Below, piece after piece: positions 1 to 34,823 of a stretch of 34,823 bases of DNA (the stretch's first letter is position 1; each line of letters opens with the position of its first letter). Under the pieces are notes generated by a model. It was given only the letters and a program-made list of their open reading frames with translations. It had not been told where the DNA came from and searched no databases. Both the position numbers and the translations under genes were made by a program. Where the stretch lies: the IMG/VR virus record IMGVR_UViG_3300035209_000051, positions 1-34,823 of that record; one strand, written 5' to 3'. This DNA is from a virus.

Positions 1-50
1 TAATCGCAGTTGCAATCCGAGCGCGAAAAACCGAACCCGGACGAAGAAAC
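1..50 (-). repeat. DGR variable repeat of target 1, haplotype B (partial)
   Basis: This is the 5' 50 bases of the variable repeat of target gene 1, cut by the window edge. It aligns without gaps to the template repeat at 34038-34118. Every difference from the template is at a template adenine: AGG to GGG, AGT to GGT, AAC to CGC, AAT to GAT, and two TAC to TGC. It is a different version of the copy at 34644-34724. Confidence 0.9.
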
Positions 51-149
51 CTTAAATACGGGGAACCATTTCTTCTGATCAATATCAAGACGGTCTGGCT
101 GCCATCCTCCGTTTATTGCCTTATTGATTATTCCAAGGCGCTCCAGGTT
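1..149. repeat. Left copy of the contig-end overlap (circularity evidence)
   Basis: Positions 24-149 are identical to 34698-34823. Positions 1-23 align to 34675-34697 with nine mismatches, all inside the DGR variable repeat. The gene crossing the join stays in frame: 431 bases on the left plus 115 on the right make 182 codons including the stop. This supports a circular or circularly permuted genome of about 34,674 bp rather than a duplicated gene. Confidence 0.88.
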
Positions 150-5200: not shown

Positions 5201-6124
5201 CTATTTAAACAGATCGTCCATTTTACGTACGGCAGTACCTTCCAGCATCCTCTCCTCTTCAATCGCTTCCTGGTAGATCATTGTTGTTTTAATATCACTA
5301 TGACCAAGGGCAGAACTGACTTCCAATAGAGTTGCGCCGTTCTTTAGTGCGGTGATTGCAAAGGTGTGTCTTAGTGAATGTGCAGTGACCTTCCTGTTAT
5401 CAATGCCTATTACCCTGAGATACTTCTTCACAAACTTTGATATAGTGACTGGCGTTAACCTTGTATCCCTGCTTACATAGCAATGATTCATGAACATGGG
5501 ATGATTTACACATATGCCATCATGCTTATTCCTGCTCTCAAGATATGACTCAATGGGATTAACTACCATTGGCGTTATACCAAGACGCCTGTCCTTTGAG
5601 ATCCTGCCCTTGCCCTGGATGTCAATTACCCAGTTCCCATTCAGGAGGTTAAGATCCCTGACATCAGATCTGCTTACTTCGATGCATCTCATCCCTGTCC
5701 TGACCATAAGGTTTATCACTGCATAATCTCTCTCTCCCTGAAGGGTAGATCTGTTGATCGAATCAAGAAGTTTTTTAACCTGTGGTTCTCTGAGATAGTC
5801 CTTCCTGAATCCTGAAGATCTCTTAGGTGAAGTGATGCCAACTGCAACATTTTCGCATATTCCAACTTCCTCCAGGTATTTAAAGAACTGTCTTACGGGA
5901 GAGAGATAGTTATCAATCGTAGATGCAGATCTCTTTGACGCGATCAGATATTTTTTATAATCTATGATCTGTGCCCTGTTAGGGCTAGAAACAGACCCGT
6001 AACGACTGAGCCAATAGATGAAGAAGTGAAGACAATCCCTGTATCTCTTCCGGGAGTTCTCCGCGATATCCTGGTTAGCCAGGAACTCATCCATTAACTG
6101 CAGTATGGGCTTTGTGGTATTCAT
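5201..6124 (-). CDS. XerC/D-like tyrosine recombinase (second recombinase)
   Basis: This 307-residue enzyme is the usual size for XerC/XerD-type recombinases. A SAM-like N-terminal core-binding domain (about 1-100) is followed by a complete catalytic set: Arg146 in TGMRCIEV, Lys172 in GKGRISKDR, His249 and Arg252 in HSLRH, His275 in LGHSD, and the nucleophile Tyr284 in TTMIYQ. It is likely active. Its start overlaps the upstream membrane-protein gene by four bases. It sits inside the HNH/terminase module, far from attP, so it is probably not the integrase. Dimer resolution, inversion or use of a different site is inference; the palindrome at 5100-5115 is a candidate substrate. Confidence 0.9.
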   Translation of the reverse strand: MNTTKPILQLMDEFLANQDIAENSRKRYRDCLHFFIYWLSRYGSVSSPNRAQIIDYKKYLIASKRSASTIDNYLSPVRQFFKYLEEVGICENVAVGITSPKRSSGFRKDYLREPQVKKLLDSINRSTLQGERDYAVINLMVRTGMRCIEVSRSDVRDLNLLNGNWVIDIQGKGRISKDRRLGITPMVVNPIESYLESRNKHDGICVNHPMFMNHCYVSRDTRLTPVTISKFVKKYLRVIGIDNRKVTAHSLRHTFAITALKNGATLLEVSSALGHSDIKTTMIYQEAIEEERMLEGTAVRKMDDLFK

Positions 6125-8977: not shown

Positions 8978-9004
8978 TCAGGTTAATGGGCAAAAAAAAT
9001 ATGA

Positions 9005-9832
9005 TCATTTATCCTGATGTATGTGGATGATGTTCTTCCAGGCGAAATATCGTGGAGCTTTTGCTTCTTCTTTATCGGCATTCAGTACCAAGCGAGAAAC
9101 AGGTTTTTTCAGTGTTACTTTCCTTAGCTCAGCTATCTCAGATCTTAAGCCATCAATTTCTCCGGGAGTAAAATCACCTGATTTCGAAAAAGTGCCAAAT
9201 AATTTGATTTTAAGATCAACCTGCTCGTCGACAAGCATTGTTAATGTTGATCTGAAAACATTATTTGCGTCCTTGCAACCCTCGGTCTCATTAACCTGGT
9301 TGTTTAGTGCAGAACGAAGTTCATTAAACGTATTCAGGTATTCTTCCTCAAGGACTTTGTGCTTAGCTGTCAGACCGGCAGCTAAAACAAGCAATGCCTC
9401 ATATTTTTTGGTCAGGACATTCACTTGGTCCTGGTCGAAACTTGCCGATTCAGGTAAAAGATCCTTTTTGATCTCTCTCCGGGTGTATTTCCTCTTTTTA
9501 TTCTCAAGGATATTCTCCGGCGAGTGCTCGTCGATCAGCCGCTTCTCAGAAGCCGGTTTTACCTCTTTGGTGCCGTCCGCAAAAAACTTGTCAATTGGCT
9601 CCCCTTCAGGAAGAGTAAATTCCCTTAAAGTGCAGCGGGTTAAGTGCCATTCATTGAATCTTTCCCACTTTGAAGGTGGGATACCATCCCATTGTTCTTC
9701 TTTCTTGATTTGCGAAAAATACATCGGATGAATGTTAAGAAGTTTTGCAGCTTCTCTGTTGCTTATCTCCTCCCTGTTTAATGCCTCCAGGAGATGCTCC
9801 CGGATGGCTTTTTTGTCAATTTTTTCGGTCAT
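9005..9832 (-). CDS. HTH-containing early protein with coiled-coil region
   Basis: This 275-residue protein has an N-terminal helix-turn-helix (about residues 10-45): ISNREAAKLLNIHPMYFSQI. A charged linker follows, then a basic segment NKKRKYTRREIKK near 112-124. A long helical region (about 135-245) is probably coiled coil and gives oligomerisation. No enzyme motif is seen. It is an early-operon DNA-binding protein, either a regulator or a replication/recombination accessory. Confidence 0.65.
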   Translation of the reverse strand: MTEKIDKKAIREHLLEALNREEISNREAAKLLNIHPMYFSQIKKEEQWDGIPPSKWERFNEWHLTRCTLREFTLPEGEPIDKFFADGTKEVKPASEKRLIDEHSPENILENKKRKYTRREIKKDLLPESASFDQDQVNVLTKKYEALLVLAAGLTAKHKVLEEEYLNTFNELRSALNNQVNETEGCKDANNVFRSTLTMLVDEQVDLKIKLFGTFSKSGDFTPGEIDGLRSEIAELRKVTLKKPVSRLVLNADKEEAKAPRYFAWKNIIHIHQDK

Positions 9833-13101: not shown

Positions 13102-14327
13102 CTTTTAATTGCCTTTATTACCCTTCCTATAGCCGCGTCGCTTTTCTTCCGGGCTTCATCGAAATCTATATACAGATCAGTCATGGTATTGAGCCCATGT
13201 CCCAGTATCATTGCAATAACATCCCGCGGGATCTTCAGCTGGAAGCACAGAGTGGCAAATGAATACCTCGCCACATAAGTAGTCGGTTTCTCGCCCAGCT
13301 GCAACTTCTTATTTACAATCATCAGGTGCTTATTTATGTTAGATCTGATATCATTATGGACCTCCGTCTTTCTCGCGGATCCCTTAGTCACCCCCTTCTT
13401 TTCGATTAAGTTCAGCAGGTACTTTTCGCCCTGGTACCTGTCAAGGATCTCCTGCGCCTCAGGGAAGATCTTTATCACATAATTGCGCCCGGTCTTAAAC
13501 CGGTCATAATGTATATATCCCTTCCTGAGGTCCTCTTTTTTAAGATAGACAAGATCCTTCAGGTTGGTTCCCCCGGTGTAAAGGATCAGGAAGAAGATAT
13601 CTATAGCAACCTTTTGTCCCGGCCAGGCTTTATCCCTGTAGTCTCTCAGCTTTTTGAGTTCCTTCAGATCCAGGGCCCGGGGTTCCTTCCTATCCTGGCG
13701 GATCTTCATCCTCCTGAAGGGATAGATCTCCGGCTTTATCTTATCCTCGTTTATGGCATGGTTGAAAATTGCCCTTATGTTACACAGGTAATTTCTTACC
13801 GTATTTGTGCTGGCGCTATTCATCCGGAGATTCTTTTCAAACCTCTCGATGAAGAAAGGAGTGATTTCCTTAAATAAGAGCTTCTCCTGCCCTGAAAAGG
13901 TTAAGAGATGTTTCAGGGTCACTTCGTAGAGAACAGCTAAGGAATGCCTGTTTTCTCTCTTCAGGGCTGAGATTTTCTCCCAGGTGTACTCCGCGAAGTC
14001 GGCTCCTGATCCCCCATCAGCTTTTAGCCTGTTCACCAGGGCATTTGTATCCATATATTCAGCCTCGGTCGCTATTGCCAGGTAAGCATCGTTATATTGC
14101 TTGGTAAGAGCCAGCAGAACAGAGTCGATGTTAGCCTTGCTTGGATGCCCTGCTTTAATAAACCCGTCAGATCCCATCCACTTGGGTTCAATATAGTGGC
14201 TGGTGGCGATATAACGCACCTTGCCTGTTTTATCACCCTTGCGCTTATGAGATACCCTTATAGCAATGTTTGTTTTCCCTTGAGAGTTCTCACGGTCCTT
14301 TCTTGTAACAGCTTTAAAAGTTGCCAT
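13098..14327 (-). CDS. int: Phage integrase, Bacteroidetes-type tyrosine recombinase
   Basis: This 409-residue enzyme has an arm-binding N-terminal domain (about 1-90), a SAM-like core-binding domain (about 105-210) and a catalytic domain. Arg354 lies in YVARYSFAT, His377 in LGHG and the nucleophile Tyr386 in DLYIDFD. The usual box I Arg is replaced: TGGTNLKDL has Asn255 at that position, as seen in a Bacteroidetes subfamily, and the box II His is Tyr351. It lies beside attP (tRNA-Pro core at 14465-14511), and one pair of arm-like repeats falls directly before its start codon, suggesting autoregulation. Confidence 0.92.
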   Translation of the reverse strand: MATFKAVTRKDRENSQGKTNIAIRVSHKRKGDKTGKVRYIATSHYIEPKWMGSDGFIKAGHPSKANIDSVLLALTKQYNDAYLAIATEAEYMDTNALVNRLKADGGSGADFAEYTWEKISALKRENRHSLAVLYEVTLKHLLTFSGQEKLLFKEITPFFIERFEKNLRMNSASTNTVRNYLCNIRAIFNHAINEDKIKPEIYPFRRMKIRQDRKEPRALDLKELKKLRDYRDKAWPGQKVAIDIFFLILYTGGTNLKDLVYLKKEDLRKGYIHYDRFKTGRNYVIKIFPEAQEILDRYQGEKYLLNLIEKKGVTKGSARKTEVHNDIRSNINKHLMIVNKKLQLGEKPTTYVARYSFATLCFQLKIPRDVIAMILGHGLNTMTDLYIDFDEARKKSDAAIGRVIKAIKS

Positions 14328-32439: not shown

Positions 32440-32484
32440 AAGCTTGAACTTCCCTACAAATTTCAGCGGATATTTTTTCCTGAT

Positions 32485-32528
32485 TATGGGACATTGTTGA
32501 CGAGTTTACGGGACATTGTTGACGAGTT
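32485..32528. repeat. 22-bp tandem repeat, two copies
   Basis: Two adjacent 22-base units, 32485-32506 and 32507-32528, differ at one base and contain GGGACATTGTTGACGAGTT. They lie between the DGR terminator and the portal start, so they could be operators for the structural operon. The TGTTGAC-containing tandem units also recall ends of IS21-type elements, but no transposase is present. Confidence 0.6.
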
Positions 32529-32568: not shown

Positions 32569-32602
32569 CAAAAACGAAAAAAACCGGTTTTAAGTCCGGT
32601 TT
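32569..32602 (-). terminator. Terminator of the DGR operon
   Basis: Minus-strand hairpin AAACCGG / CCGGTTT with an eight-base loop (32581-32602), followed by a T-rich run (TTTTCGTTTTT). It lies about 84 bases after the accessory gene. It should end the terminase-PcfJ-DGR transcript and separates it from the portal operon. The stretch 32440-32685 otherwise holds only the tandem repeat and no convincing gene. Confidence 0.75.
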
Positions 32603-32685
32603 CATCATCAAATTTGGCAGATTTTGTAATTTTCTGGCAATGCAAAATTTGTTAATTATCTGTAATTCAGCATAAAATAAAAATA

Positions 32686-32991
32686 TCAAGTGAACTGGAA
32701 GCTATTATTGTCTTCAATAATAGTTGCAACAAAAGGGAATTTATCCCTGGGAATCTGCTCGATAGCTTCAATCAAAAGACGTGAAGAAGTGAACAGAATA
32801 TGTTTCTCCTGGTTGATCGAGATCTGAAGATGAAGGCATTTCCCAGTACCCTTGTCTTTGAAAACTTTTGAATCTTCAATCTTAAAGTCATGAATCACGA
32901 TCTCTTTATTCAGGATCCTTGACATCTTGATCTTTTCTCCCTCAAATCCCCTGCTTGGAGGCTTGATATTAAACTGACTGAACCGGTTCAT
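32686..32991 (-). CDS. DGR-associated small protein (possible accessory factor; not Avd-like)
   Basis: This 101-residue protein's start overlaps the reverse transcriptase gene by 23 bases, so the two are translated together. It appears to be mainly beta strands: HDFKIEDSKVF, then KCLHLQISINQEKHILFTSS, then FPFVATIIEDNNSFQF, suggesting an OB-like or small barrel fold. The classical DGR accessory Avd is a four-helix, basic protein, so this is a different factor. A role in nucleic-acid binding during mutagenic retrohoming is inferred from position. An internal Met23 is an alternative start. Confidence 0.65.
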   Translation of the reverse strand: MNRFSQFNIKPPSRGFEGEKIKMSRILNKEIVIHDFKIEDSKVFKDKGTGKCLHLQISINQEKHILFTSSRLLIEAIEQIPRDKFPFVATIIEDNNSFQFT

Positions 32992-33937
32992 GAAGCAGTT
33001 TCTTAATTAAGTGTTTACTATTGCAATGCTTTGCCCATCCTTTGTAGGATGCTATAGATTGAGGATTAGCTCCTGATGCAATCTTTCGGGCGAAATTCTT
33101 CTTGATGCTCTTTCTAAGCCGGATATGAGAATGCCTGAAGACATATCCCACAAAATCAACTCCCCTGGCATCTACCGGGAAGACCTGGTAATTATCCTTT
33201 ACTTCAAGCTTCAGATTATCCCGGAGGTAGATCCTGATGTCAGCAAGTACCTGGTGCAGGTAAGATTTGCTGCCGGAGAGTATAACCATATCATCGGCAT
33301 ACCGAAAATAATATTTGACGCCTCCAATCTCTTTGATCCAATGGTCAAAATATGTAAGGTAAAAGTTAGCCAGGTACTGGCTCAGGTAGTTCCCGATGGG
33401 AAGTCCTTCAGCACTGTCGATAATTCCATCGAGCAGCTGCAGGAGATCATGGTCCTTGATCTTCTTCCGGAGAAGTCCCTTCAGTATATCATGGTCAACG
33501 TTCGGATAGAACTTCGTTATATCAAGCTTCAGGCAATACTGAGTGCCGGTCTGATCCCGGAGGGTATCCTTCAAGGATCTCATGGCCGCATGTATGCCGC
33601 GTTTTTTAATGCAACTGTAAGTATCGGCAGTGAATGTTGAAACGAATATCGGCTCCAGGATATTCATCACTGCATGATGAACGATCCGGTCCGGGTAATA
33701 TGGCAGTCTGAAAATTATTCTTTCTTTAGGTTCGTGGATTGTGAAGGTGGTATATACGGAGGTTTTGTAAGTCTTATTGATCAGCGCCTCCTGCAGATCC
33801 TTCAGGTTATTCTCCCTGTTCCTATCATGCTCCAGTACTCCCGGCTGATTAAGCTTACCCTCCCGGGCTATCTGATCAGCCAAGCGAAGATTTTCCAGGG
33901 TACAAATTTGCTGATATAAGTTATTTTTTCTTTTCAT
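32969..33937 (-). CDS. DGR reverse transcriptase
   Basis: This 322-residue enzyme carries out adenine-mutagenic reverse transcription of the template repeat RNA. The fingers begin at about residue 40. Motif A is CLKLDITKFYPNVD (Asp139), the DGR-type motif is IGNYLSQ (181-187, with SQ), the catalytic YADD is at 213-216, and the thumb has DFVGYVFRHSHIRLRKS. There is no maturase or endonuclease domain, and the length fits DGR enzymes rather than group II introns. It lies 100 bases downstream of the template repeat on the same strand. Confidence 0.95.
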   Translation of the reverse strand: MKRKNNLYQQICTLENLRLADQIAREGKLNQPGVLEHDRNRENNLKDLQEALINKTYKTSVYTTFTIHEPKERIIFRLPYYPDRIVHHAVMNILEPIFVSTFTADTYSCIKKRGIHAAMRSLKDTLRDQTGTQYCLKLDITKFYPNVDHDILKGLLRKKIKDHDLLQLLDGIIDSAEGLPIGNYLSQYLANFYLTYFDHWIKEIGGVKYYFRYADDMVILSGSKSYLHQVLADIRIYLRDNLKLEVKDNYQVFPVDARGVDFVGYVFRHSHIRLRKSIKKNFARKIASGANPQSIASYKGWAKHCNSKHLIKKLLHEPVQSV

Positions 33938-34037
33938 GCCTTTGCATTCAAAGGATCGCGTTCCCTTGTGAGTACCAGCGCTCCTGTTTTGTTAAGTTAT
34001 TTTTTGCCTTGTTGGCAGGGTCTAGGCTGCAGTGTGT

Positions 34038-34118
34038 GCATAGGTGCGAACCGACGTTCGTATTCGTATAATCGTAGTTGTAATTCGAGTTCGAAAAACT
34101 GAACCTGGACGAAGAAAC
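34038..34118 (-). repeat. DGR template repeat (TR), 81 bp
   Basis: The 81-base template reads, on the minus strand, GTTTCTTCG... to ...CACCTATGC. It carries 20 adenines, mostly in AAC/AAT and TAC/TAT codons. It matches the variable repeats at 34226-34306 and 34644-34724 without gaps, with substitutions at adenines. The last 18 bases (GTCGGTTCGCACCTATGC) correspond to the IMH*, differing from the targets' GTCGGTTCGCGCCTTTGC at two adenines. It lies between the second target gene (stop at 34154) and the reverse transcriptase. Confidence 0.95.
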
Positions 34119-34153
34119 TGACAGCTGCGGCAGCATACAACCTTACTTGTTAA

Positions 34154-34558
34154 TTACAATAACCATTTCTCATAATGCTCTTTGCACTTCTCCAGCGCCC
34201 ATAGGGCCTTTTCAGAGGAATCAGTGCAAAGGCGCGAACCGACGCTCGCAGACGAATAAACGGAGCTGCAATCCGAGCCCGAAAAACCGAACCCGGACGA
34301 AGAAACCCAGGGCCACGGGTAATATTTGACCTGATTAGAGTTCTTGTAATCTGGCGTCCATCCGTTGTTTATTGCCATAAGAAAAATGGCGCATAAGATC
34401 CCGGCTTTAAATTTCTCGCCAAGATCTCCGGGAAGCATTGAGAGATCCGGGATGGAGTTGATGTCAAAATTCAGATGCTTACACGCATCTTCAACTGATC
34501 CGATGGTCTTATAATCGAATGCAGCTTTCTTTTTTGTTTTCGATGATTTCGTTGTCAT
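34154..34558 (-). CDS. DGR target protein 2 (variable lectin-like protein)
   Basis: This 134-residue protein has a lysine-rich N-terminus, a short helical domain (SVEDACKHLNFDINSIPDL) and a C-terminal C-type-lectin-like domain. That domain starts with AINNGWTPDYKNSNQVKYYP, followed by the variable block after VSSSGFGFS and a conserved VGSRLC. It shares architecture with target 1, but the N-terminal region is much shorter and different. It starts one base after the target 1 stop, so the two are one transcript. DGR target domains bind diverse ligands, so a virion-surface binding role is inferred. Confidence 0.9.
   Translation of the reverse strand: MTTKSSKTKKKAAFDYKTIGSVEDACKHLNFDINSIPDLSMLPGDLGEKFKAGILCAIFLMAINNGWTPDYKNSNQVKYYPWPWVSSSGFGFSGSDCSSVYSSASVGSRLCTDSSEKALWALEKCKEHYEKWLL
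34226..34306 (-). repeat. DGR variable repeat of target 2 (VR1)
   Basis: This 81-base copy differs from the template at 16 positions, all of which are adenine in the template; 16 of 20 adenines are changed and none of the 61 other bases. Encoded changes include AAC to GGC, TAC to TCC, GAT to GTT and AAT to TCT. Confidence 0.95.
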
Positions 34559-34559
34559 T

Positions 34560-34823
34560 TTATTCTTCGGTATTGGTTATAAGAGCTTTCCAGAATTTCA
34601 AGAACTGTGTGGCTGAGTAATCAGACTGTGCCTCTGTTTCAAAGCAAAGGCGCGAACCGACGCTCGCATCCGTACAACCGTCGTAGCAAGTCGAGTACGA
34701 AAAACCGAACCCGGACGAAGAAACCTTAAATACGGGGAACCATTTCTTCTGATCAATATCAAGACGGTCTGGCTGCCATCCTCCGTTTATTGCCTTATTG
34801 ATTATTCCAAGGCGCTCCAGGTT
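34560..34823 (-). CDS. DGR target protein 1, 3' part (continuous with 1-431)
   Basis: This part encodes the lectin-like C-terminus. It continues from the linker INKAINGGWQPDRLDIDQKK through VSSSGFGFS, the variable block and SVGSRLCFETEAQSDYSATQ, ending in LITNTEE. The window's right edge repeats the sequence at 1-149, so the gene is complete only on the circular molecule. The stop codon is one base before the start of target gene 2. Confidence 0.88.
   Translation of the reverse strand, partial: NLERLGIINKAINGGWQPDRLDIDQKKWFPVFKVSSSGFGFSYSTCYDGCTDASVGSRLCFETEAQSDYSATQFLKFWKALITNTEE
34644..34724 (-). repeat. DGR variable repeat of target 1, haplotype A (VR2)
   Basis: This 81-base copy differs from the template at 14 positions, 13 of them adenines in the template and one T to G. 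It differs at nine positions from the other copy of the same repeat at 1-50. Confidence 0.95.
34675..34823. repeat. Right copy of the contig-end overlap
   Basis: Positions 34698-34823 are identical to 24-149. The preceding 23 bases match 1-23 except at nine variable-repeat positions. Removing one copy gives a circle of 34,674 bp. Confidence 0.88.

Follow-up and report, generated by a model that had tools for sequence, protein, structure and literature searches.

The window, the whole 34,823-nt stretch of DNA analysed here, carries a diversity-generating retroelement (DGR) on its minus strand, with a DGR reverse transcriptase (RT), one template repeat (TR) and two tandem target genes. The gene order proposed by a sequence-only reading (target 1, target 2, TR, RT and accessory gene) is right. 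Target 2 (34154–34558, 134 amino acids) is a paralogue of target 1, the 3′ part of which lies at 34560–34823, and each contains a variable repeat: VR2 at 34224–34306 and VR1 at 34642–34724, with about 27 more codons after the latter. The non-coding TR (about 34036–34118) is closed by a stem, P1, with its 5′ strand at 34130–34142 (GGTTGTATGCTGC) and its 3′ strand at 34019–34030. The spacer between TR and RT holds an RNA element (33939–34030, 89 bits with model R1) that includes the hairpins P2 (34005–34017, TGCCAACAAGGCA) and P3 (33953–33984, strongly covarying). The RT (32969–33937, 322 amino acids) is followed by an accessory protein of 101 amino acids (32686–32991), whose gene overlaps the RT 3′ end by 23 nt, and then by a terminator-like hairpin with a T tail at 32580–32603, recognised by consensus match only.

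The DGR had also been called complete within 32686–34823. The retroelement with its two tandem targets is real, but target 1 is incomplete within that range. Because the contig is terminally redundant, with positions 1–149 repeating 34675–34823, the 5′ part of target 1 is found at 150–509 on the minus strand (open reading frame 509 to 3) and joins the 3′ part across the contig junction. Counted from the first ATG at 509, target 1 totals 207 amino acids; its relatives have about 155. The two copies of the 149-nt overlap show no differences at the 98 positions outside the VR and nine at the 51 positions inside it, eight of these at TR adenines. On the plain reading, they are two VR1 alleles of the sampled population, the second represented by its 5′ 51 nt only (1–51, minus strand), and this allele difference is likely why assembly broke at the contig end; the second allele could possibly reflect a chimeric assembly end instead.

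The cassette sits between the terminase and portal genes. Directly upstream of the DGR are a PcfK-like (2347–1868) and a PcfJ-like gene (1866–532), together spanning 2347–532 and named after conjugative plasmid proteins. A 22-nt unit, TTAYGGGACATTGTTGACGAGT, occurs twice head-to-tail at 32484–32527, just upstream of the portal gene. The phage had been described as temperate, and a tyrosine recombinase is indeed encoded at 14327–13098; a second one at 6124–5201 makes two in one small phage genome.

The RT reading frame (33937–32969) contains the motifs previously noted, PIGNYLSQ and YADD. The protein matches phrog_1423 (E = 5e-125) and Pfam RVT_1, and its best solved relative is the BPP-1 DGR RT 8ub7 (E = 4e-41; next best, 4e-19). 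In a tree of named DGR RTs and group II RTs, the comparison that had been suggested as a check, it falls with the DGR RTs of crAss-like and other phages, and the group II intron RTs stand apart at 100/100; the inner order of the DGR RTs is poorly resolved in this tree, and long branches were flagged. The RT motif is of the SQ type, whereas group II RTs have QGxxxSP, and a group II intron RT is ruled out by tree, motif and bit scores. A defence RT (Drt3a or retron) was also rejected, its NCBIfam matches lying far under the cut-off. The closest named relatives are the RTs of the crAss-like phages cr55_1 and LMMB (49–58%).

Both VRs align to the single TR without gaps, and apart from these repeats the window has one VR- or TR-like stretch, the other copy of VR1 at 51–1. 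All 16 mismatches of VR2 fall at TR adenines over 83 nt, a TR length with 21 adenines (hypergeometric P = 4e-13). For VR1, 13 of 14 mismatches do so over an 81-nt repeat, as had been counted before, and 14 of 16 over 83 nt (P = 4e-9). Our alignment of 63 distinct TRs from relatives with their own VRs separates two classes of mismatch. At core TR adenines, C, G and T all appear in the VRs of both targets, and positions other than adenine almost never change. In the flanks, by comparison, the base opposite a TR adenine is constant: the 5′ columns 28 and 34 hold G, and the 3′ columns 82, 89 and 93 hold G, G and T (58/58, 59/59 and 52/52 in the VR2s of relatives, with VR1 alike save for single exceptions). 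In the proteins, the fixed columns correspond to the conserved glycines in SSGFGF and, in VGSRLC, to the G and the R. In the window, four mismatches per VR belong to this fixed class, at TR adenines 34106, 34100, 34045 and 34041; the last two, G and T in both VRs, lie in an IMH*-like TR 3′ end (34041–34055). The description of the adenine mismatches as the hallmark of DGR mutagenesis thus holds for the core and not for these four positions, and removal of the fixed class leaves 12 core mismatches in VR2 and 10 in VR1 (81-nt repeat).

As a sequence pattern, the 3′ fixed group resembles the difference between IMH and IMH* in BPP-1. The 5′ fixed group may mark a limit of cDNA transfer or may result from selection, and the data do not separate the two. 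The sole core mismatch at a non-adenine is a T-to-G difference in VR1; because this column is A in 17 of the 63 TRs of relatives and the other VR1 allele matches the TR there, the mismatch is probably older than a change in the TR. Immediately 3′ of the VR, a stem-loop signal is weak, with a mean stem of 4.5 against 3.4 in shuffled sequences for VR2 and 4.1 against 3.9 for VR1; such stem-loops are not universal in DGRs.

Contigs of one phage species recovered from different metagenomes show the same pattern between genomes. L010 and L011 have no differences at 2,513 positions outside the VRs, and their third VR differs at 13 of 19 TR-adenine sites and at none of 56 others. For L010 and L012, the count outside the VRs is 1 of 2,131 positions, with VR2 differing at 12 of 22 TR-adenine sites and 0 of 63 others, and L009 and L010 differ at 1 of 2,513, with VR1 differing at 9 of 22 TR-adenine sites and 2 of 62 others. 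Overall, near-identical relatives differ at 9–13 TR adenines in one repeat and at 0–4 of 2,100–2,500 sites elsewhere, and the VRs change independently of one another. Variation spread evenly over non-adenines had been named as the finding that would speak against a DGR; both within the contig and between relatives, variation lies almost wholly at template adenines. Since near-identical relatives differ almost only at these VR positions, the DGR is active in its lineage, and most likely in this phage too.

The RNA around the TR has a conserved architecture, seen in an alignment of 58 sequences that begin shortly before the TR and end at the RT start codon. The consensus consists of the 12-bp stem P1, which joins the TR flanks, and the P2 and P3 hairpins in the spacer. 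With the structure held fixed, 97.2% of cells pair, and 17 of the 23 pairs show double changes, with 182 double-change cells in all; none of 500 shuffles reaches any of the observed structure values. Slid versions of the structure pair at 34–47%, a control that is flattered by deriving the structure from the same alignment, although the compensatory changes are independent of this. The TR RNA of the window folded alone has no excess stability (z = 0.16), so the structure is visible only in the alignment, and a search of Rfam returned no family. The tip of P3 varies in length: its loop is extended in L079, L023, L025, L050, L059 and L080, in L079 as a perfect hairpin, GTCCCGATAGCTATCGGGAC, which suggests that the tip tolerates insertions.

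We built a covariance model of the spacer from phage loci and applied it to prophage and genome loci that had not contributed to it; there, 22 loci have the element immediately ahead of the RT (30.8–85.6 bits). Among crAss-like phages, the element precedes the RT in cr55_1, at 28 bits (E = 0.002), and in LMMB, at 26 bits (E = 0.006); LBR48 and BalMu-1 have weaker matches directly in front of their RTs. By eye, the flanking sequences GGTTGATGTCAA and TTGACATGACC of cr55_1 can pair as a P1 with the same bulged G. One relative, L002, carries additional material between RT and accessory (L002:7593–9200), comprising a third target of 431 amino acids with a lectin-like VR and a second TR (8984–9096). 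Behind this second TR lies a second spacer element (41.5 bits) with no RT after it; the element thus accompanies the TR and is more than a leader of the RT. A single RT in L002 seems to act for both TRs and all three targets.

We searched for the accessory family in viral and bacterial contigs without using the RT as a query. The RT lies directly upstream of the accessory in 100 of the 104 loci of that search; the exceptions are two loci at a contig edge, one with an RT remnant and one with a 635-nt gap. In most loci, the accessory overlaps the RT reading frame. A Prolixibacteraceae contig, DMSQ01000040.1 (L162, L183), carries the DGR accessory twice, at a distance of about 40 kb; the second copy is divergent (35%) and separated from its RT by 635 nt. 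The accessory was considered as an Avd and rejected: the bAvd profile PF22296 finds the BPP-1 control (2e-37) and has no match in the window or in three relatives. PF05635 is useless as an Avd probe, as it misses the same control. Pfam and NCBIfam searches assign the accessory to no family. Its AlphaFold model (pLDDT 89.7) is composed of strands and one helix, and its closest solved structures are nearly all OB domains, including RuvB-like domain II (Z = 6.4), mitochondrial Rim1 (5.6), SsbA (5.0) and other single-strand-binding proteins (4–5). Because these Z values are middling, below the level at which a single match is trusted, the OB fold is a prediction; with such a fold the protein probably binds nucleic acid. 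A search of titles and abstracts for OB folds together with DGRs returned nothing relevant, and an earlier report of the accessory is possible.

Relatives of the RT number 356 in IMG/VR. Among the best 80 of these, nearly all with enough flanking sequence have two VRs, about 190 and 610 nt upstream of the TR; in loci without a detected VR, the RT is near the start of the available sequence. The common, portable cassette of target 1, target 2, TR, RT and an accessory of about 101 amino acids recurs in about 80 related loci from unrelated phages. Its neighbours in L010 and L017 are terminase, portal and capsid genes, as in the window; in other loci they include MuB-type transposition genes, Mu-type portal and head genes, methylases, primases, ATPases and head proteases. 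Among the annotated recurring neighbours there are no tail fibre genes, and many neighbours have no known function. The assignment to Bacteroidetes was borne out, as cassette relatives in host genomes are mostly on Bacteroidota contigs, with two in Ignavibacteria. Prophage genes lie near the bacterial-genome cassettes in all three loci checked. Cultured hosts of a related prophage include Niastella caeni (L164), Flavobacterium sp. AED (L175) and Pedobacter arcticus (L169).

The target proteins, 120–160 amino acids long in the lineage, have no recognised domain; both match only phrog_11581, a family of unknown function. Pfam and NCBIfam searches gave no family for them, neither has a recognised signal or tail domain, and we found no homology between targets and accessory. 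In both, the VR lies within the reading frame, internally rather than at the C terminus. Outside the VR, targets 1 and 2 form two old families, with 3 label changes on the tree against 31.6 when labels are shuffled (47 loci); the pair is therefore ancestral and has been kept together. A third target copy is present in L005, L009–L011, L044 and L080. Target 2 is modelled, with pLDDT 85 and lower values in the VR, as two helices, a hairpin that bears the VR and two C-terminal helices. The model resembles nothing above noise in the PDB and, in BFVD, only uncharacterised phage proteins, several from crAss-like phages. With hhalign (90%), 28 columns of the VR element match the VR element at the C terminus of C-type-lectin targets, so these proteins may share the variable hairpin with lectin-type targets. 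The remainder is not recognisable as a lectin; a very divergent lectin fold is possible. Inferred from gene position only, the targets are somewhat more probably non-tail binding proteins than tail fibres; position, together with their size and spread across unrelated phages, is why we lean this way, at moderate odds.

Comparison with the DGR of BPP-1 (mtd, avd, TR, brt) shows the same RT family (35% identity, E = 2e-39), a TR that precedes the RT and is followed by a structured spacer, transfer from TR to VR that is specific to adenines, and 3′ differences of the IMH/IMH* type, the last seen here as a sequence pattern only. BPP-1 differs in having one tail fibre target, whereas here there are two small targets with an internal VR followed by about 25 codons, and in having Avd, where here an OB-fold-like accessory stands behind the RT; a further difference is the 12-bp stem that closes the TR here. 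The crAss-like DGRs of cr55_1 and LMMB share the spacer element before the RT and a related VR element, but these two, on inspection, each have one large target, a tail protein that carries its VR at the extreme C terminus, and the small gene behind their RT has, by eye, no match to the window accessory.

Two-target phage DGRs have been described in the tentaclin phages nd4 and nd12 (PMC10743442), Quimbyviridae (PMC8008677) and Bacuni phages (PMC8143477). As here, one TR and RT serve two targets, one of which is possibly non-structural in Quimbyviridae (PMC8008677). The targets of all three groups are larger proteins with C-type lectin or similar folds, and in Bacuni and Quimby phages they are far apart on the genome; in contrast, those studied here are short tandem paralogues in the same order across unrelated phages. 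Reported DGR accessories are Avd, HRDC and MSL (PMC10053308). Like these, the window accessory is a small gene tied to the RT, but it has a predicted OB fold and no Pfam or NCBIfam family. The DGR itself is ordinary; what is new is that its two small targets form a fixed pair, that its accessory is not Avd and that its TR lies in a covarying architecture.

By analogy with BPP-1, for which TR priming and error-prone copying have been summarised (PMC12875486), the TR and spacer would be transcribed as one RNA, in which P1 would close the TR and P2 and P3 would form a platform. The RT would prime on and copy the TR with errors at adenines, and the mutated cDNA would replace VR1 or VR2. The fixed flank positions would mark the usual limits of replacement, with IMH versus IMH* at the 3′ end telling target from template. 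The OB-fold accessory may take the place of Avd, binding TR RNA or single-stranded cDNA for the RT; we infer this role from synteny and from a fold prediction with middling scores. A bolder reading, to which we give a probability of roughly 0.3, is of a portable Bacteroidota-phage DGR in which the OB-fold accessory would replace Avd and the targets would be two small binding proteins, always paired and absent from the virion, with a scaffold that differs from the classical C-type lectin fold, at work inside infected or lysogenic cells.

The cassette could instead be a standard host-range device like that of BPP-1, with targets that are carried on the virion, as a tail tip or an adhesin, and vary its binding to receptors. 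Tail proteins make up the majority of viral DGR targets (PMC8144416), and the 28-column match of the VR element to the C-terminal element of crAss-type C-type-lectin tail targets fits such a role, yet the proteins are only 120–160 amino acids long with no recognised tail domain, and their gene neighbourhood is terminase and portal here and methylase, primase, transposition and head genes elsewhere. L002, moreover, adds its 431-amino-acid target with a lectin-like VR and its own TR, as if a tail-type target were something added separately. We regard the host-range explanation as possible, though doubtful. That the accessory is a chance phage gene behind the RT, with no part in retrohoming, is unlikely. 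Phages often carry OB-fold single-strand-binding proteins, but a chance neighbour would hardly keep its place beside the RT in 100 of 104 loci found independently of the RT, across unrelated phage backbones and host genera, overlap the RT frame in most of them, and be retained in the L002 cassette despite the target and second TR inserted between it and the RT.

The remaining explanations concern the repeats themselves. A decayed DGR, whose repeats record only past activity, would account for the one non-adenine mismatch in the window VR1, and single contigs cannot show timing; against this stand intact RT motifs, two alleles within the assembly and near-identical relatives that differ almost only at VR adenines, which leave decay very improbable. 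Another account attributes the divergence of the repeats to base editing, or to gene duplication with selection, and not to reverse transcription; in its favour are the fixed flank differences, by which part of the adenine mismatches is not random. In the core, however, A changes to C, G and T rather than by one transition, and does so at TR adenines only and in dozens of loci; the repeats adjoin a DGR RT. This core pattern and the near-identical relatives refute the account in substance, and we give it almost no weight.

The DGR mechanism is known mainly from BPP-1, which requires both Avd and the spacer RNA. A large lineage without Avd, with another accessory fixed in its place and a compact, covarying RNA, offers a second solution with which to compare it. 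The RNA model helps to find TRs, including those away from any RT, as in L002. That two small targets stay together across unrelated phages hints, in a way that can be tested, at roles of phage DGRs beyond the switching of tail receptors.
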